A stretch of DNA of 34,265 bases from a virus: the IMG/VR virus record IMGVR_UViG_3300048112_000090, positions 1 through 34,265 of that record; one strand, given 5' to 3'. Positions 4,143 through 19,192 of this stretch are shown one piece after another. The translations under genes were made by a program, and so were the position numbers. The notes under the pieces were generated by a model. It did no database searches. It saw nothing but the letters and a program-made list of their open reading frames with translations, and was not told where the DNA came from. Position 1 is the first letter of the stretch; each line of letters begins with the position of its first letter.

Positions 4143-4418
4143 ATGAAAAACAAAGCAAGGTTTGTAAATGTAAACTTAGAACTTATGGTAAAAGACTTAA
4201 ATATAAAAGAAGTAACACTACTATCATTGATACAGTCGTTAGCTAAAAAGAAAGGCTACTGCTTTGCTACTAACGAGATGTTATCTGAGTCCTTAGGGAT
4301 TCACGACAGAACACTATACCGAATGCTGAATAAATTAGAAGAAGGTGGTCATATATCAAGAGTCACTCAATCTATCGGCAACTACGGAAAGGAAAGAAGA
4401 ATATACTTACACGATTAA
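4143..4418 (+). CDS. Winged-helix DNA-binding protein
   Basis: This 91-aa protein consists almost wholly of a winged helix-turn-helix: LNIKEVTLLSLIQSLAKKKG, then CFATNEMLSESLGIHDRTLYRML as turn and recognition helix (about residues 40-63), then a wing (NYGKERRIYLHD). Similar domains occur in phage replication initiators and in small regulators. It ends 1 bp before the primase-helicase gene, so an initiator or helicase-loading role is reasonable. It could instead be an early transcription regulator. Confidence 0.75.
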   Translation: MKNKARFVNVNLELMVKDLNIKEVTLLSLIQSLAKKKGYCFATNEMLSESLGIHDRTLYRMLNKLEEGGHISRVTQSIGNYGKERRIYLHD

Positions 4419-11134: not shown

Positions 11135-11337
11135 TGGGAGATGAGCAGAAACAGGAAATAATACTCTACGGCTATCGAGATTCGTTAATGCTCTACGACG
11201 AGGGATTATCAATAGACGATATAAAAGAAGTATTACAATTATATGAAGAAAGAGAACTGTACCTAACTTGTGCAGGAATTAAATTAGCAATAGACGAATT
11301 AATAGAGAAATATGGAAATGACACCGTTACAAATTAA
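11134..11337 (+). CDS. Hypothetical acidic helical protein
   Basis: The 67-aa product (MGDEQKQEIILYGYRDSL) is rich in Glu, Leu and Tyr and predicted largely helical. I chose ATG at 11134, which overlaps the TGA of the exonuclease by one base; a GTG at 11131 is possible. Its 3' end overlaps the next gene by 26 bp. No family is recognised. Confidence 0.65.
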   Translation: MGDEQKQEIILYGYRDSLMLYDEGLSIDDIKEVLQLYEERELYLTCAGIKLAIDELIEKYGNDTVTN

Positions 11338-11689
11338 GAAGAAGATAGAGTTGGATTTTGGCATTACAATAAAAAAACAATGCAAACTGAGAGAGTATGT
11401 CTACCCACGAGCGATATACTTTAAGCTATGTAGAGAGTACACAGAATTGACGTTGCAAGAGTTGGCTGAATCCGTAGGACTAACAAACCACGCAACAGTT
11501 CTTAGAGCTATAAACAATACTTTCTACGATGCAATCTACGAGAACAAGTACAAGAACTACTACGATAAATTCAAAAGGCAGATGGATGATAGTCCAACAC
11601 TGGAGCAAGAGAACAAGATACTAAAGATAAAGGTTCAAGAGTTAAAGCAAGTTATAGATGGGTATAGGTTTAATCTCATAGGACAATGA
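11312..11689 (+). CDS. DnaA C-terminal-like DNA-binding protein
   Basis: The middle of this 125-aa protein resembles domain IV of DnaA: VYPRAIYFKLCREYTELTLQ, then ELAESVGL and TNHATVLRAINN (about residues 30-72). This matches the DnaA signature in which D-H-[ST]-T-V contacts DnaA boxes. A charged coiled coil follows (TLEQENKILKIKVQELKQ). Lacking the ATPase domain, it is probably a sequence-specific DNA-binding protein that marks the phage origin or represses transcription. A second ATG at 11318 could also start it. Confidence 0.75.
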   Translation: MEMTPLQIKKKIELDFGITIKKQCKLREYVYPRAIYFKLCREYTELTLQELAESVGLTNHATVLRAINNTFYDAIYENKYKNYYDKFKRQMDDSPTLEQENKILKIKVQELKQVIDGYRFNLIGQ

Positions 11690-13677: not shown

Positions 13678-14869
13678 GAAATACAAGTCGTTATACAATA
13701 GCGATGCAAGATACCACGTTGTAACTGGAGGTCGTGGTTCGGGAAAGTCGTTTGGGATAAACGTATTCCTACTCCACCTAACCTATGAGAAAGGGCATAA
13801 GATTCTCTTTACTCGTTACACTATGACCTCAGCCTCGATGTCTATTATTCCTGAGTTCTTGGAGAAGATAGATTTGATGGGTGTTGCAGAACACTTCGAG
13901 GTTACTAAGGCAGAGATCACAAACAAGCTCACAGGAAGCTCTATTATCTTTAGTGGGGTCAAGACATCAAGTGGCGACCAAACGGCAAAGCTAAAGTCTA
14001 TTAATGCTGTTACAACGTTTGTTGTTGATGAGGCAGAAGAACTTACAGACGAAGAAGTATTCGATAAGATTGACTTTTCTGTTAGAGCAAAAGGTGTAAA
14101 GAATAGATGTATCGTAATCTTAAACCCTACGACAAAAGAGCATTGGATATACCAAAGGTTCTTTCAGAATAGAGGTGTACCTGATGGACATAACGGAGAT
14201 AAGGAGAACGTGAATTATATCCATACAACATACCTTGATAATATTGACAACCTATCAGAATCGTTTGTGTTAGGTTTAGAGGATATGAAGAAGCATAGAC
14301 CAGAGAAGTTTCGCCATCAGATAATGGGAGGCTGGCTGGACAGAGCAGAAGGTGTTGTGTTTACTGATTGGTCGATAGGAGATTTCCCTAAAGATATGGA
14401 CACCATCTTTGGACAAGACTTTGGATTTTCGGTAGACCCATCTGTATTGGTCGAGGTTGCAGTAGATAAAAAACTAAAGAAAGTGTGGGCAAAGCTCCAC
14501 TTCTACAAACCAGGAATGGCTACATCTCAGCTCTATGAATCTAATAGGAGGTACGCAGGTAAGAATCTTATTGTGTGTGATAACTCAGAGCCAAGACTAT
14601 TGTCAGAATTTAAGATGAAAGGACTTAACGTTACCCCTACAATCAAGAAGAAAGGTAGTATCTTGACGGGTATTGCGATGATGCAAGACTATCACATTGT
14701 TATAGATAGCAATTCAATAGACCTGATAAAAGAGTTTAATAACTACTCTTGGAAGATGAGAGGCTCTGTGCCTCGTGATGATTGGAATCACGGAATAGAT
14801 GCCTTGCGTTATGCTTGTGAGTATCTGCTGATGAGGTCAGTTCCTAAAGGGATGTACATCGTCAATTAG
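13655..14869 (+). CDS. terL: Terminase large subunit (DNA packaging motor and nuclease)
   Basis: The 404-aa protein has an ATPase with Walker A GGRGSGKS (residues 25-32) and Walker B FVVDEAEEL. It also has a C-terminal RNase H-like nuclease with acidic residues in FGQDFGFSVDPSVLV, VCDNSEP and WNHGIDALRY. It follows the Terminase_3 architecture. It pumps DNA into proheads and cuts the concatemer. Circular permutation of the assembly is compatible with headful (pac) packaging, but the site cannot be read directly. The nearest repeat cluster starts 5 bp after its stop codon. Confidence 0.95.
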   Translation: MSQVQLNKKYKSLYNSDARYHVVTGGRGSGKSFGINVFLLHLTYEKGHKILFTRYTMTSASMSIIPEFLEKIDLMGVAEHFEVTKAEITNKLTGSSIIFSGVKTSSGDQTAKLKSINAVTTFVVDEAEELTDEEVFDKIDFSVRAKGVKNRCIVILNPTTKEHWIYQRFFQNRGVPDGHNGDKENVNYIHTTYLDNIDNLSESFVLGLEDMKKHRPEKFRHQIMGGWLDRAEGVVFTDWSIGDFPKDMDTIFGQDFGFSVDPSVLVEVAVDKKLKKVWAKLHFYKPGMATSQLYESNRRYAGKNLIVCDNSEPRLLSEFKMKGLNVTPTIKKKGSILTGIAMMQDYHIVIDSNSIDLIKEFNNYSWKMRGSVPRDDWNHGIDALRYACEYLLMRSVPKGMYIVN

Positions 14870-14874
14870 TTTGA

Positions 14875-14945
14875 CAATTCAATAGGGTAGTTTGACAATT
14901 CAATACCCTTTCAATTCAATACCCCCCCTTTCAATTCAATACCCC
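14875..14945. repeat. Repeat cluster R1: four CAATTCAATA units
   Basis: Units start at 14875, 14896, 14912 and 14932 (spacing 21, 16 and 20 bp). Each reads CAATTCAATA followed by a run of G (first) or C (the other three). The first GGGTA can pair with the later TACCC. It begins 5 bp after the terL stop. The 17-bp form CAATTCAATAGGGGGTA recurs at 17.0-17.2 kb and shorter forms occur at 18.9 kb. Confidence 0.85.
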
Positions 14946-14969
14946 TCCGATTTCTCGTTGGGGTTTTTT
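14941..14969 (+). terminator. Intrinsic terminator after the terminase operon
   Basis: ACCCC (14941-14945, the end of the last R1 repeat unit) pairs with GGGGT (14960-14964) and six Ts follow. The upstream C-runs of the other R1 units could substitute in the stem. From here to 15134 there is no gene; the gap holds a CCTGGAATCCAGG palindrome (14990-15002) and promoter P5. Confidence 0.6.
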
Positions 14970-15074
14970 GATTTTAGCTCTTTGTCAGTCCTGGAATCCA
15001 GGAGGTGTCATCGTGCCACATCACAAACAAAAAGACTTTTGTAGGTCTTGTCAAGTAAAAAAGTGAAAAAAGTT

Positions 15075-15104
15075 TTGGTAGTTTGAAAAATAGTTGTACA
15101 TTTG
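15075..15104 (+). promoter_or_regulatory. Promoter P5 of cassette A
   Basis: TTG (15075-15077, in a TTTTGG context) is followed after 19 bp by TACATTTG (15097-15104). The ATG of the first cassette A gene lies at 15134, giving a short leader. The promoter also shows that the in-frame TTG at 15083 cannot be the start codon. Confidence 0.75.
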
Positions 15105-15133
15105 CTTCAAGTTTAAACATTAAAGCAAACTAT

Positions 15134-15325
15134 ATGAAAAATCCAAGAACAAAAAAAGGAACAATGCAAAATATCTATAAGCAAGATATTACTTCTGATA
15201 TTCAGAAGGCGTTAGACTTAATCAGTAAAGGTTTTTTCTTGTCGGAAAACAATACTGCATTGGAACACAAGGAAGGCGGATACTTTAAAATCAGCAAAAG
15301 AGTTACTAATTACTTTAACAAATAA
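15134..15325 (+). CDS. Hypothetical 63-aa protein, first gene of cassette A
   Basis: This small basic protein (MKNPRTKKGTMQNIYKQDIT, later SKGFFLSENNTALEHKEGGYFKISKRVTNYF) may form a short alpha/beta domain. The start is set by the promoter upstream. Similar short proteins with a GGYFKIS-type strand accompany DUF2693-like proteins on phages and plasmids, as far as I recall. The function is unknown. Confidence 0.65.
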   Translation: MKNPRTKKGTMQNIYKQDITSDIQKALDLISKGFFLSENNTALEHKEGGYFKISKRVTNYFNK

Positions 15326-15337
15326 AAACTAAATATT

Positions 15338-15607
15338 ATGACAAACAAAAGAGAACAAATTATCAAGGCAATTAGTACTGGAAAATTCTTTACTATTAAG
15401 TTTATCAAGAAGAACGGAATGCTTAGAGAACTCAACGGAAGGCTTGGAGTAAAAAAACATCTTAAAGGAGGATCGCTTGGATATGACCCAAAGACTTTCA
15501 ACTATATCATTGTTTTTGATGTAGCTAATAAAGGATACCGAACTGTGAACGTAGATACAGTTATCGAATTAATTTGCAATAAAAATAAGATAGAATTTGC
15601 CAGTTAG
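15338..15607 (+). CDS. DUF2693-like protein
   Basis: The 89-aa protein has the pattern KFFTIKFIKKNGMLRELNGRLGVKKHLKGG, then YDPK, a hydrophobic strand, KGYRTVNVDTVIEL. This strand-rich layout fits DUF2693, a small uncharacterised family of phages, plasmids and conjugative elements in Bacteroidota. It might bind nucleic acid through an SH3-like barrel, but that is inference. Promoter P6 overlaps its 3' end, so the next gene can be expressed separately. Confidence 0.65.
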   Translation: MTNKREQIIKAISTGKFFTIKFIKKNGMLRELNGRLGVKKHLKGGSLGYDPKTFNYIIVFDVANKGYRTVNVDTVIELICNKNKIEFAS

Positions 15608-15627
15608 AAATAAATGTTGTAGATTTA
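15597..15627 (+). promoter_or_regulatory. Candidate promoter P6 within cassette A
   Basis: TTG (15597-15599) and TAGATTTA (15620-15627) are separated by 20 bp; the last base of the -7 box deviates. The leader downstream (CCAAGTTTAACAAATAAAAC) closely resembles that of P5 (TCAAGTTTAAACATTAAAGC), indicating a duplicated control unit. Confidence 0.5.
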
Positions 15628-15656
15628 CACCAAGTTTAACAAATAAAACAAACGAT

Positions 15657-15881
15657 ATGACAAAAGCAGAACAAGTACAAAAAGCCAAAGACCTATTACA
15701 AAGCGTAGGCTACCACGTTTCCTGGTGGACTGTTGGCGATGTTACAGATAACTACGATGTTAGCTTTCAAGAAGCTCAGCATTGCTTAGAGGCAGTATTA
15801 CACGGAGAACTAATTACCGATATGGTAAAGGAAGAAATACACGAATTTGCATACGAAAACGATTACAAAGAAAATAACTAA
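15657..15881 (+). CDS. Hypothetical 74-aa protein of cassette A
   Basis: The protein MTKAEQVQKAKDLLQSVGYH is followed by WWTVGDVTDNYDVSFQEAQHC and an acidic helix (MVKEEIHEFAYEND). The middle resembles a helix-turn-helix in which DVSFQEAQHCLEAVL would be the second part, but this is a weak resemblance. The ATG at 15657 follows leader P6; an in-frame ATG-less extension reaches back to the promoter and is discarded. Confidence 0.65.
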   Translation: MTKAEQVQKAKDLLQSVGYHVSWWTVGDVTDNYDVSFQEAQHCLEAVLHGELITDMVKEEIHEFAYENDYKENN

Positions 15882-15892
15882 AAACAAATATT

Positions 15893-16042
15893 ATGACAAT
15901 GAACGAATCATTACAAAGACATCAAGCATTTAACGAGGTGCTGAAGCTTATGAACAGTAACAAAGATTTTATGAATTTTGGCTTGTTTGACGAGATAGTC
16001 AAGTTAGCCCTAGAACGACAAGAAATAACTAAAAACAATTAA
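15893..16042 (+). CDS. Hypothetical 49-aa protein of cassette A
   Basis: This small helical protein (MTMNESLQRHQAFNEVLKLM, then NFGLFDEIVKLALERQEI) ends 1 bp before the next gene. Alternative starts exist at the second Met. No family is recognised. It shares the short intergenic motif CTAAAAACAA with the preceding gene end. Confidence 0.55.
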   Translation: MTMNESLQRHQAFNEVLKLMNSNKDFMNFGLFDEIVKLALERQEITKNN

Positions 16043-16043
16043 G

Positions 16044-16310
16044 ATGGAAAACATTACAACAGAAAGATTTAGAGGATGGGCAAATTATTTTACTTTCAAG
16101 GTGTTTGATGACACTTTGAGTATGATTGATTTCGATGATAAGGTAAGTGCTGAAGACGTTAGAAAGATTGCATTACAGAATTTATTTTTAGGCTATGAAA
16201 TTAAAAACGGAAGCCATAGGGTAGAAGAATATGCAAAGATGATGATGGAGTTGGTAGACTTTGATGACATCGCAGAAACTATTAATCTTGATCTAAAAAA
16301 CATAAAATAA
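16044..16310 (+). CDS. Hypothetical acidic 88-aa protein of cassette A
   Basis: The protein (MENITTERFRGWANYFTFKV, then MIDFDDKVSAEDVRKIALQN and a helical C-terminus) is acidic and predicted alpha-helical. Its stop overlaps the next ATG by one base (TAATG), so the two are translationally coupled. A possible mimic of DNA or an inhibitor of a host enzyme cannot be excluded, but no motif supports it. Confidence 0.65.
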   Translation: MENITTERFRGWANYFTFKVFDDTLSMIDFDDKVSAEDVRKIALQNLFLGYEIKNGSHRVEEYAKMMMELVDFDDIAETINLDLKNIK

Positions 16311-16468
16311 TGGAATACACAGACGAACAACAAGAACTAATGTATATTGAATACTTTAATAACTATTTGACTATTGATGTTTTCGCAGAGCATCATCAGA
16401 TCAGTAGAGAAGAAGCCGGACACATTTTGTCAAGTGGCAGACTAATTAACCACAGTAAATACAAATAA
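16310..16468 (+). CDS. Small helix-turn-helix-like protein of cassette A
   Basis: The 52-aa product contains YLTIDVFAEHHQISREEAGHILSSGRLI (about residues 20-47), which has the shape of a short DNA-binding helix-turn-helix. Such mini regulators are common in phage accessory cassettes. It starts within the stop of the previous gene and ends 1 bp before the zinc-ribbon gene. Confidence 0.55.
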   Translation: MEYTDEQQELMYIEYFNNYLTIDVFAEHHQISREEAGHILSSGRLINHSKYK

Positions 16469-16469
16469 G

Positions 16470-16604
16470 ATGGCTAAAAACAAATGTAATATGTGTGGGC
16501 ATAACAATCCCAAAGATAATTTTAGATGCGAAGCAGAAGACTGCGGAGTGCCTTTAGATTTAGAAATAACTATAAACGATTGGGGACTACCCGAAATAAA
16601 CTAA
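16470..16604 (+). CDS. Small zinc-ribbon-like protein of cassette A
   Basis: The 44-aa protein carries CNMCGHNN and CEAEDCG, two Cys pairs (Cys6, Cys9 and Cys22, Cys27) that should hold one zinc ion. Only the ribbon and a short acidic tail are present. It could bind nucleic acid or a host protein. The stop is followed after 1 bp by the next ATG. Confidence 0.6.
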   Translation: MAKNKCNMCGHNNPKDNFRCEAEDCGVPLDLEITINDWGLPEIN

Positions 16605-16605
16605 G

Positions 16606-16746
16606 ATGGAAGGAGAAATTAGAGTGACAGAACTCAATCAACTTATAAAAGAGTCAAGGGCAAAAGTAGAGTACTACGAATCCAAACTCATAGATTCCAG
16701 GTTACAATTATTAAAGCAATTAATCGAACTAAAAAAACTAACATAA
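16606..16746 (+). CDS. Small coiled-coil protein of cassette A
   Basis: The 46-aa frame (MEGEIRVTELNQLIKESRAK, then a Leu-rich helix LQLLKQLIELKKLT) is almost entirely one amphipathic helix. The spacing of 1 bp on both sides suits an operon gene. No function is recognised. Confidence 0.55.
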   Translation: MEGEIRVTELNQLIKESRAKVEYYESKLIDSRLQLLKQLIELKKLT

Positions 16747-16747
16747 T

Positions 16748-16996
16748 ATGTCATACAATAAAAAATGGGCAGATCTAAAAACACTAACACCCGAACAAAC
16801 ACAAAGAGGTAATTTCCCAAGAGATTTTTGGAATTACCATACCAATGCAGTAACCGGATTCCCAATAGAGCGAACAAGGGGCGAAATAGAAGCTGAGAGG
16901 AAATATAATGAAGGCAAGTATAGAAAGCCATCACAATTTCCTGACGCACGTTGTAACGGCTCGAGAGTGCCTAGATTTGCGAAAGATGGTTTTTAG
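16748..16996 (+). CDS. Hypothetical 82-aa protein, last gene of cassette A
   Basis: This basic, proline- and aromatic-rich protein (NFPRDFWNYHTNAVTGFPIE, ERTRGEIEAERKYNEGKYRKP, then SRVPRFAKDGF) seems weakly structured. It ends 5 bp before the first R2 repeat, exactly as terL ends 5 bp before R1. No family is recognised. Confidence 0.65.
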   Translation: MSYNKKWADLKTLTPEQTQRGNFPRDFWNYHTNAVTGFPIERTRGEIEAERKYNEGKYRKPSQFPDARCNGSRVPRFAKDGF

Positions 16997-17001
16997 GGTA
17001 G

Positions 17002-17188
17002 CAATCTAATAGGGGGTACGCAATTCAAAAGGGGGTAACATTAATTTGTTGCTCCTTTTTTTTTGTTGGCAAAAGTTCTCCAGGCAGATCGGTTCTCCAG
17101 GAAGAAATAGTTTGACAATCCAAAAGGGGGTAAACAATTCAATACGGGGTAGCAATTCAATAGGGGGTAAACAATTCAATAGGGGGTA
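17002..17188. repeat. Repeat cluster R2: six 17-bp units
   Basis: Units of consensus CAATTCAATAGGGGGTA start at 17002, 17021, 17116, 17135, 17153 and 17172. Spacing inside the two groups is 18-19 bp, and the last two units are perfect. The 95-bp gap between groups holds a terminator and a GTTCTCCAGG pair (17075-17084, 17092-17101). The gene-free stretch 16997-17318 also has a G-rich tract at 17199-17233 and promoter P7. Confidence 0.9.
17032..17064 (+). terminator. Intrinsic terminator of cassette A
   Basis: GGGGTAACA (17032-17040) pairs with TGTTGCTCC (17047-17055) over nine base pairs, including two G-U, with a 6-nt loop. Nine Ts follow at 17056-17064. The upper arm is the G-run end of the second R2 repeat unit, so a repeat unit supplies half of the terminator. 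Confidence 0.75.
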
Positions 17189-17256
17189 GGCTCGTTTTGG
17201 TGGTGGGTGGTGGCGGTTTGTATGGTGGTGGGTTTCAATACATTGCGAAAAAAAAT

Positions 17257-17286
17257 TTGGCACATTGTAAAAAAAGTGTATCTTTG
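17257..17286 (+). promoter_or_regulatory. Promoter P7 of cassette B
   Basis: TTG (17257-17259, in ATTTGG) is followed after 19 bp by TATCTTTG (17279-17286). The first gene of cassette B starts at 17319. Confidence 0.75.
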
Positions 17287-17318
17287 TCAAAACATTACTA
17301 ACTAAAATATATAATACT

Positions 17319-17591
17319 ATGAATGTAACCGATAAACACGTAGCCGAAAACAGAGCCGCAATTCGTAAAAACATACAGAACAAAATTCTAAAAACTAACA
17401 AAATGAAAGAACTACAAAAACCTAAGACAATCGAACTTAAAACGGGCTTGACGTGTAAAATTGACAAAAACGGACGTGTACACGTTTTTAATACAAAAGA
17501 ACTGCAACCAGAGCCGAAAACAAAAGAGGGTGTTTACCTTGCTTTGTTCTTTATTTTATTAACTGCTTTTATCCTAATCAAAACTATCTAA
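17319..17591 (+). CDS. Small protein with C-terminal membrane anchor, cassette B
   Basis: The 90-aa product has a basic, hydrophilic N-terminal part (residues 1-68, ending KELQPEPKTKEG) and one strong membrane helix at residues 70-89 (VYLALFFILLTAFILIKTI), so it is probably tail-anchored with the soluble part in the cytoplasm. An internal ATG at 17403 could give a 62-aa form. It precedes the GP88 gene by 11 bp. The function is unknown. Confidence 0.65.
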   Translation: MNVTDKHVAENRAAIRKNIQNKILKTNKMKELQKPKTIELKTGLTCKIDKNGRVHVFNTKELQPEPKTKEGVYLALFFILLTAFILIKTI

Positions 17592-17602
17592 ATTTTACCA
17601 CT

Positions 17603-18319
17603 ATGGAACTACAAAAATATCAATCAAAAAAACTATTAAGCAACGGAACTACTAATACCAAAACGGCAAAAAACGATATAAAAACTTTTATACTTTACTT
17701 AGCCCCACACAATCAAAACAGCAAAGGGATAACTCTTTGTTCTCATGCATCAATTGGATGTATTAAGGCTTGCTTATTTTCGGCGGGGCGCGGTAAATTT
17801 ACCAATGTACAAAACTCACGTACAGAAAAAGCCAATTATTTTGTAGAGTATAAAAAAGAGTTTCTCAATCACCTAGCAAAAGAAATAAATACAAAAGTAA
17901 AAACCGCAAGACGCAAAGGTGAAAAAATTGCGTTTAGGCTAAACGGCACGTCCGATTTAGATTTTGTCTACCTACTTAAAAAGCATGCAAATTTTGATAT
18001 TTTAGATACAAAGGATGTTGCAATATACTATGACTATACACCAAATATTCAACGTGCGATAAGATATAAAAACCATCCGCTTTATACAGTTACATTTTCG
18101 CGTAAAGAAAATAATCCCGTAGAAACTAAAATAGCTTTTAACGAGGGCATAAATACAGCTGTAGTATTTAATAAGCTGCCAAAAGTTTGGATGGGCAAAA
18201 AAGTTATTGACGGTGATAAAAGCGATTTAGAGATGGTAAAGCATAAAGATGTTATTTTAGGACTTATTGCCAAAGGTGATGCAAAAAAGGATAAAACTAA
18301 CTTTGTAATATTTATATAA
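17603..18319 (+). CDS. GP88-family phage protein
   Basis: The 238-aa protein fits the phage Gene Product 88 family as I recall it: TFILYLAPHNQNSKG, then CSHASIGCIKACLFSAGRG with Cys46, Cys53 and Cys57, a RTEKANYFVEYKKEFLNHLA helix, and FRLNGTSDLDF (about residues 112-122). The three close cysteines resemble a metal or iron-sulfur site, though none has been shown to my knowledge. GP88 proteins are widespread in phages but have no established function. The gene lies in a repeat-bounded cassette with its own promoter and terminator, and its codon use (for example CGC, ACG, GCG) differs from the replication genes. Confidence 0.75.
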   Translation: MELQKYQSKKLLSNGTTNTKTAKNDIKTFILYLAPHNQNSKGITLCSHASIGCIKACLFSAGRGKFTNVQNSRTEKANYFVEYKKEFLNHLAKEINTKVKTARRKGEKIAFRLNGTSDLDFVYLLKKHANFDILDTKDVAIYYDYTPNIQRAIRYKNHPLYTVTFSRKENNPVETKIAFNEGINTAVVFNKLPKVWMGKKVIDGDKSDLEMVKHKDVILGLIAKGDAKKDKTNFVIFI

Positions 18320-18327
18320 GTTAATTT

Positions 18328-18450
18328 ATGGAAGCATTAAAAAGCCTAATTAAGGCATACGGACAAAAACCAGTCGACACATTGGACGGACTAAAAAAGC
18401 AATTGGATGAAATTTTAGAATCAATTGACCCACGTTGCGAAGAGTATTGA
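18328..18450 (+). CDS. Hypothetical 40-aa protein, last gene of cassette B
   Basis: The short helical frame (MEALKSLIKAYGQKPVDTLD, then GLKKQLDEILESIDPRCEEY) starts 8 bp after the GP88 stop and ends 33 bp before a strong terminator, so it fits the operon. Its composition is typical of a small helical adaptor. No family is recognised. Confidence 0.55.
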   Translation: MEALKSLIKAYGQKPVDTLDGLKKQLDEILESIDPRCEEY

Positions 18451-18483
18451 ATTAATCTTTAACCCTTATCTATTAAAATTAAG

Positions 18484-18506
18484 CCTCCCAATTGGGGGGT
18501 TTTTTT
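18484..18506 (+). terminator. Strong intrinsic terminator of cassette B
   Basis: CCTCCC (18484-18489) pairs with GGGGGG (18494-18499, one G-U pair) around an AATT loop, with seven Ts at 18500-18506. This is the clearest terminator in the window. Confidence 0.9.
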
Positions 18507-18592
18507 GTGTTATTAATTTACGGGGCTTGTTGATTGTCAAATTTTTATGATTAATTAAGGGGGTGAAAGGGGGTGCGCTTCCTTTTGCACCC

Positions 18593-18773
18593 AAATAAGC
18601 CGTTTAAGCAACTTTTTAGCCGTTTTAAGAGCCTTTTGAGCAGATCTGACACCAATATACCACCTGGACAATTTCGAGCCGTTAGAAACGATATTTGCCA
18701 AGTAAAGGAATGACCTCAAATAAGCCGTTCTAAGAGATTCTTTTTTTCAATCTATACCAACATACCACCTGGA
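18593..18773. repeat. Duplicated boxes (AAATAAGCCGTTYTAAG and CCAAYATACCACCTGGA)
   Basis: Box A lies at 18593-18608 (AAATAAGCCGTTTAAG) and 18718-18734 (AAATAAGCCGTTCTAAG). Box B lies at 18652-18668 and 18757-18773, differing at one base. Two further AGCCGTT cores lie near 18617 and 18677. The A-then-B order is kept in both copies, with different spacing (59 and 39 bp), which suggests protein-binding sites more than a simple tandem duplication. Confidence 0.7.
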
Positions 18774-18898
18774 GGGTGAAAGTAGCTTAAAATAGCCTTA
18801 CTATGGCTTAGGAGGGGTGTCAGGGGTGGACTCTCACGGGATACGATGCGTGACAGTCTATTCACCTCCACTCTCTACACAAGTCAATCTCCAACTGA

Positions 18899-18942
18899 CA
18901 ATCTAATAGGGTGGGTAAATGGTTCTTCAATTCAATAGGGTA
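18899..18942. repeat. Repeat cluster R3: two units
   Basis: CAATCTAATAGGGTGGGTA (18899-18917) and CAATTCAATAGGGTA (18928-18942) are variants of the R1/R2 unit. They lie 250-270 bp before the late genes, closing the accessory interval that R1 opens. Confidence 0.75.
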
Positions 18943-19027
18943 CTTAAAATAATCTCATCGCTCTATATATCACGATATATACTTAAACAATATACTGTAT
19001 ATTTATTTTAGTGTATCACGTAGAATA

Positions 19028-19117
19028 CTTACTATGATATATAACACTATGTATTATGATATACTACACTATGTATCATAATATGTAATGTATCATAATA
19101 TATTATATTATAGTAAG
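19028..19117. repeat. AT-rich palindromic tract
   Basis: The outer arms CTTACTATGATATA (19028-19041) and TATATTATAGTAAG (19104-19117) match at 13 of 14 pairs. Inside lies a perfect 10-bp inverted repeat (TATTATGATA 19052-19061, TATCATAATA 19074-19083). The tract also has a 22-bp direct periodicity (ACACTATGTAT at 19044 and 19066). It could form a cruciform or melt easily. Confidence 0.7.
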
Positions 19118-19192
19118 TGACAAAAAGACAGTTGGAGATATACGAGGTACACTTCATCATTTTTCTATTACTTGAGTAGAAATATTCAATTT

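Follow-up and report, generated by a model that had tools for sequence, protein, structure and literature searches.

What is the role of the short tandem repeats that punctuate the interval between the terminase and tail genes of an environmental phage? The repeats lie in IMG/VR record IMGVR_UViG_3300048112_000090, a virus record of 34,265 nt that was analysed over its whole length (the window) and whose terminal 141 bases at both ends match each other at 99%. They form three groups, R1, R2 and R3, located after the terminase gene terL, between two gene cassettes and before the late region. The initial annotation suggested homology-driven exchange or site-specific insertion of the cassettes at these repeats. 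The analysis points elsewhere: with a probability of about one half, the repeats are an oriented boundary element (AATTYAATA followed by a C- or G-run), repeated in tandem where inferred transcription units meet or reach their 3' ends. They look more like boundary marks for the reading of genes than joints for the swapping of cassettes.

The repeat units of the window

The window holds 12 units, four in R1, six in R2 and two in R3, all on the plus strand, and their coordinates and grouping were confirmed as initially described. R1 (14875..14945) lies directly 3' of terL, with cores at 14875, 14896, 14912 and 14932 followed by the runs GGG, CCC, CCCCCCC and CCCC. R2 consists of R2a (17002..17037), two units with cores at 17002 and 17021, and R2b (17116..17188), four G-run units (17116, 17135, 17153 and 17172) spaced 19, 18 and 19 apart, located 3' of the R2a terminator and 5' of the cassette 2 promoter. 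R3 (18899..18942; cores at 18899 and 18928) forms no stable hairpin and stands at the left end of the region that precedes the tail operon. As had also been noticed, the first units of R1 and R2 start 5 bp past a stop codon (TAG 14867-14869 and 16994-16996), the second being the last stop of cassette 1.

The units are less uniform than the initial annotation had it. The shared core, CAATTCAATA, is exact in 8 of the 12, with one mismatch at 17021 and two at 17002, 17116 and 18899. A G-run and TA, said to follow in most cases, does so in 8 of 12 units (17135 reads CGGGGTA); the unit at 18899 has GGGTG after the core, which brings the G-runs to 9 of 12, and the remaining three units, all in R1, carry C-runs. 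The core with at most one mismatch has 19 matches in the window (5.8 expected) and the 17-mer with at most three mismatches has 8 (0.11 expected), six of them R2 units; neither count was reached by any of 100 shuffles. Chance is excluded as the origin of the 12 units.

At R1 and R2a the runs form arms of predicted terminator stems. The predicted intrinsic terminator of R1 (14941..14970, plus strand; site 14945-14963) takes the C-run of the last R1 unit as its 5' arm, and that of R2a (17027..17064, plus strand; site 17027-17060; z -4.4) takes AAAAGGGGGTAACA of the second R2a unit. The stretch contains six terminator-like sites, on both strands and some overlapping, vs 2.1 expected, and those on the plus strand come after terL, cassette 1 and cassette 2.

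A strand-polar motif of a phage group

Among the loci with a window-type terL, referred to here as the group, the motif reads AATTYAATA and then a C- or G-run. Followed by three C/G, AATTYAATA occurs 258 times forward and 6 times reverse in 702 kb around window-type terL genes, and 61 of 78 loci hold at least two matches; the count took 78 of the 80 terL-relative loci, leaving aside L005 and L016, which are numbered elsewhere. The surroundings of P12024-type terL genes (80 loci, 656 kb) gave 2 forward and 0 reverse matches, and the reversed control pattern 0 and 1. The polarity also holds in 12 large records, where 66 of 67 matches are on one strand (control total 4) and AATTYAATASSS has 3-9 matches per record, mostly clustered.

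The motif is nearly restricted to this group. Two tandem cores with C/G triplets were found in at least 120 stretches of viral contigs vs 30 in the cellular genome collection, where most stand in other contexts as judged by eye. New loci were made from 103 of the viral stretches, and 100 of these carry at least one of 12 window genes. The nearest cultured relatives, which infect seawater Nonlabens/Persicivirga, include the Nonlabens phages P12024L/S; their terminase resembles that of the window (52.7%) and they have no tandem cores in the regions read. No cultured phage with arrays was found. A blastn search of 50,697 phage records with R1 and the L097 array returned only matches at E 0.1 or worse and, with the low-complexity filter on, is not decisive. 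Literature text searches for the core string and for Flavobacteria phage repeats gave, among the papers listed and judged by title, no description of the motif, and Rfam gave no match in the window. The phage group is large and known only from environmental DNA.

Two of the cellular cases are observations in their own right. A Flavobacteriales TMED96 metagenome-assembled genome (MAG) has one phage-like unit pair with spacing 17 at L220 and L224, in identical surroundings on two contigs, and these 8-kb loci gave no match to the 12 window genes. The L211 genome (JAHDID010000001, Verrucomicrobia MAG-85) has 396 matches of ATTCAATA-SSS-TA and none of the control pattern; the matches listed share the sequence ATTCAATAGGGTA and often stand in tandem, with a period of 21. 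The L211 repeat is a look-alike dispersed repeat in a bacterium.

Where do the clusters lie? Their orientation follows the direction of most genes (gene direction, not transcripts). They occupy up to five separated loci per genome. By eye, in ten records read from end to end (the window and nine more), four boundaries recur, though not all in every genome: one follows terL or its accessory genes, one precedes the tail operon, one follows the capsid gene and one is the late/early junction. An upstream open reading frame (ORF) stop lies within 200 nt of 82 of 106 distinct clusters; 44 of the 82 start at most 15 nt after that stop and 12 overlap it as TAAATTCAATA. Counts of cluster position, run identity, folds and overall spacing refer to de-duplicated arrays or sites. 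Cluster-position and spacing analyses left out L001-L004, which are window copies, and the cellular loci; the run and site statistics (214 sites) left out L001-L004, L006, L009, L012, L013 and the cellular L204-L233.

In one subgroup an antisense array in a minus-strand gene, which we take to be DUF5664-like, encodes G/P-I-E/K-F-T; 26 distinct proteins were found, all with at least two I-E/K-F copies. Despite this, a coding origin was rejected for the repeat in general: 93 of 143 spacings are indivisible by three, and such an array lies antisense inside a coding gene in only 3 of 10 genomes read.

Folding of the arrays and the boundary reading

If the runs act through pairing, their base identity should be free to vary, and the first run position is indeed balanced between C (51%) and G (49%; 214 sites). 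Flipping the last run between C and G in 81 arrays left the downstream fold weaker in 48, stronger in 23 and unchanged in 10 (p=0.0035), and when all runs were flipped together the observed folds were the more stable (p=0.002, 81 arrays). With the terminator and the last unit held fixed, pairing among the non-terminal units was favoured outside the window subgroup (46 arrays, p=0.007). Pairing of all units was nonetheless rejected as a general rule on the fold tests of non-terminal units. Taken together, these tests indicate that terminator formation explains the last unit in part of the arrays, and neither the conserved core nor all units.

The reading as an oriented transcription boundary is favoured because of the positions, the polarity and the terminators, and we infer that the gene-group boundaries are ends of transcription units. 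In such a mechanism, RNA polymerase leaving terL or cassette 1 would transcribe the units, whose runs might pair with one another or with a downstream run and so halt transcription, extra units providing alternative arms. The invariant core would be bound, as RNA or DNA, by a factor of phage or host origin on which the function of the boundary depends. A working boundary could then let accessory units sit between terL and the late operon without read-through.

Several observations weigh against this reading. An array ends in a hairpin plus U-tract in only 28 of 81 cases. With the terminator fixed, the non-terminal units show no pairing preference across all 54 arrays (p=0.30), and the choice of C or G opposes pairing in 7 of the 8 arrays from the window subgroup; arrays folded without the terminator show no overall effect (p=0.65; others p=0.054). 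Within the window, R2b folds better than most shuffles (z -2.2) and lacks a U-tract, while R3 is outdone by its shuffles, 191 of 200 of which fold at least as well; neither R2b nor R3 forms a terminator. No upstream ORF stop lies within 200 nt of 24 of the 106 clusters, 18 of 214 sites precede host-type -7 boxes, and there are the antisense arrays of three genomes. Moreover, no core-binding factor was identified, and the group is defined by terL type.

For a large phage group the repeats supply a regulatory signature that can be tested, and their core, polarity and spacing offer starting points in the search for the factor that reads them.

Odd spacing between cores

Why are the cores so often an odd number of nucleotides apart? 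Among 69 array families, 130 core-to-core spacings are odd and 13 even, ten of the latter being 16. The common values are 15, 17, 19, 21, 23 and so on, with 16 the only common even one, and linker and run lengths offset each other across many different strings. Database-wide, stretches with spacing 21 number 68, those with spacing 20 one and those with spacing 18 five. The window's own subgroup supplies the single spacing of 20 and four of the five of 18; its distinct inter-core strings are 28 odd and 8 even. The window itself breaks the rule, with 3 of 8 spacings even (21, 16, 20 in R1; 19 in R2a; 19, 18, 19 in R2b; 29 in R3). Common descent of the families, and the coding nature of part of the spacing-21 stretches, keep these counts from yielding a clean probability.

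Helical phasing was tried and rejected, spacings of 15-21 being a misfit to 10.5-bp steps, and the odd spacing is left as an anomaly without a mechanism at hand. A tentative extension, which we consider unlikely, is a strand-polar boundary code of the whole group, in which a dedicated factor would read tandem AATTYAATA units spaced in 2-nt steps and thereby mark transcription stops between early, accessory and late units. If so, the odd spacing would hint at a new structure or stepping mechanism on RNA or DNA. In any case the anomaly is concrete, and structural or biochemical work could resolve it.

Cassettes and their predicted promoters

Cassette 1 (15134..16996, plus strand) comprises nine small ORFs of mostly unassigned function, starting at 15134, 15338 (WYL_2-like), 15657, 15893, 16044, 16310, 16470, 16606 and 16748; family and homology searches took all of these except 16606. 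Cassette 2 (17319..18450, plus strand) comprises an unassigned ORF (17319-17591), a member of the Gene product 88 family (17603-18319; PF17338) and a small ORF read from the sequence (18328-18450). That each cassette has its own promoter and terminator agrees with the predictions. A host-type promoter is predicted on the plus strand before cassette 1 (15074..15104; TTTG-N19-TACATTTG) and another, by pattern match, before cassette 2 (17256..17286), ~130 bp beyond the last unit of R1 and ~70 bp beyond that of R2b. The pattern TTTG-N19-TAnnTTTG has 5 matches in the window vs 1.7 expected, and 2 of 100 shuffles reach 5. Cassette 1 is followed by the terminator-like site at 17027 described above and cassette 2 by a predicted terminator (18481..18506, plus strand; site 18481-18502) that contains no repeat unit.

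Alternative readings

A first alternative keeps the core and its polarity and dispenses with the stems. The units could be stoperator-like DNA sites, at which a phage protein bound to the asymmetric core blocks or regulates RNA polymerase in one orientation, the terminator stems being incidental. The sites are indeed asymmetric, hold one orientation relative to most genes, often fall in short intergenic spaces and sometimes stand near promoter boxes, and all 12 array records encode a small winged-helix protein (4143-4418 in the window). That protein, however, is closer to replication initiators than to repressors, the sites are few and mostly tandem, and their spacing lacks the helical phase. 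No integrase or repressor was recognised among the ORFs, although the family search covered 22 window proteins and no systematic recombinase search was made, so that absence is not shown. On balance this alternative appears unlikely.

Are the repeats instead recombination joints, homologous or site-specific, at which gene cassettes are swapped? The interval between terL and the tail genes is an accessory island, since in P12024L/S a distant homologue (~30%) of the window tail gene begins at the terL stop, with no cassettes between. Within the group R1 is kept 3' of terL in 11 relatives, and R2 is present wherever the locus extends that far; cores stand directly after terL in 9 relatives and in L014, and exact R1 cores number 2 in L026, 3 in L023, 4 in the window and 5 in L025. 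The small genes lying between the two arrays are acquired or dropped one at a time. Among the 11 relatives, in the more distant four (L014, L019, L020 and L026), similarity stops 24-29 bp past R1 and restarts at the left edge of R2, and it stops at the right edge of R2 in L014, L020, L005 and L016; the loci of L019 and L026 end inside R2, the right side of which is unseen there. L014 and L020 thus keep R2 while the genes on both sides of it differ, and in L019 and L026 the genes to its left differ as well.

These alignments uphold part of the exchange proposal, namely a real accessory island with arrays that persist beside differing genes. The seven closer relatives gave the outcome that the initial annotation had named as telling against it: the repeats occur without cassette change, and similarity continues ~160 bp past R1, up to the promoter leader. 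Overall, 12 of 76 breakpoints among the 11 relatives fall near arrays vs 7.3 expected; these split evenly between the stretch 24-29 bp past R1, the left edge of R2 and its right edge (four each), and the four more distant relatives contribute 10 of the 12. At promoter leaders and gene starts the count is 40 of 76 vs 11.4 expected, an excess that is partly circular because the leader intervals were chosen after the alignments had been seen. It may be the promoter leaders that serve as recombination joints, and not the arrays. Copies of the motif are also found at places without a cassette, after the capsid gene and, in relatives, at the late/early junction. A role of the repeats as joints is distinctly improbable; exchange at them is possible on these alignments, weakly supported and perhaps a by-product. 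Leader sequences at 15074-15142 and 15608-15665 (also in L016 and L005) are themselves repeated, at places of gene gain or loss.

The units might also be replication iterons that bind an O/DnaD-like initiator; the melting element would then be the AT-rich region that precedes the tail operon. An HTH_36 initiator and a primase-helicase are found in 12 of 12 array records, whereas 18 P12024-type records lack the primase-helicase and give one weak initiator match (E 6.6e-4), a contrast confounded by relatedness and drawn from records that may be fragments. The AT-rich repeat region adjoins R3; the arrays, on the other hand, occupy several separated loci, mostly away from that region, and lie at stop codons. 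This alternative is likewise distinctly improbable. The initiator candidate (4143-4418) is a 91-aa winged-helix (HTH_36) protein, O/DnaD initiator-like, encoded just 5' of the primase-helicase. At 11312-11689 lies a stand-alone HTH protein resembling DnaA domain IV (PF08299); homologues of it occur in P12024 and in each of the ten array genomes that were compared. The window has 1 DnaA box match vs 5 expected, and its GC skew, positive or zero throughout, is uninformative as to an origin. An 11-bp inverted repeat, ATCTCCAACTG at 18887-18897 and CAGTTGGAGAT at 19129-19139, encloses R3 and the AT-rich stretch (18887..19139, no strand assigned). Among the upstream regions read, many other group phages have AT-rich repeats of their own in the 300 bp before the tail gene (66 loci; mean AT 0.77), and a TGCC-N-GGCA-like motif is found at the right flank in 36 of these 66 loci, P12024L/S, two of the 66, being without it. 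The region 18887-19139 before the tail operon is a candidate origin, late control or packaging site.

Packaging, with the units as small-terminase binding sites (pac or cosB-like), is very improbable and fits worse than an origin role: a cluster 3' of terL in terL orientation is common among array loci, but there are several clusters per genome, including those after the capsid gene and at the late/early junction.

Comparison with known systems

How does an oriented boundary element of this kind compare with systems already described? Ordinary intrinsic terminators resemble R1 and R2a in their G/C-rich stem followed by a T-run, and differ in that the units here have a conserved 9-nt core before the stem, whose run may be C or G, stand in tandem and in many cases come without a terminator. 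Lambda-type origin iterons are direct repeats of about 17-21 bp accompanied by an initiator gene, and both features are found here; our units, unlike those iterons, lie at several separated gene-group ends and form no single origin cluster.

The PeSL promoter-terminator cassettes of T4-type phages, reportedly treated by Arbiol in 2010 and Comeau in 2014, are likewise said to be small regulatory elements that recur at gene boundaries and include a terminator. In PeSL, terminator and promoter would be joined in one element, whereas here the promoters stand ~130 and ~70 bp beyond the last unit. Modular shuffling is attributed to PeSL; gene turnover in the present group is not clearly centred on the units (12 of 76 breakpoints near arrays vs 7.3 expected, 10 of the 12 in four distant relatives).

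Passages on the L5-type stoperators describe sites in short intergenic spaces whose orientation follows transcription (PMC9283540, PMC6550527). To that extent the stoperators of L5-clade (Cluster A) mycobacteriophages and the present elements are alike: short, asymmetric, in one orientation, set in short intergenic spaces and particular to one group of phages. An L5-clade genome has more than twenty stoperators, at most about 30, whereas 3-9 matches per record occur here, mostly in tandem clusters. Stoperators also have a cognate repressor and belong to temperate phages, while here C/G runs are built into terminators and no binder is known. Although membership fails on site number and arrangement, the stoperator may serve as the closest working analogy.

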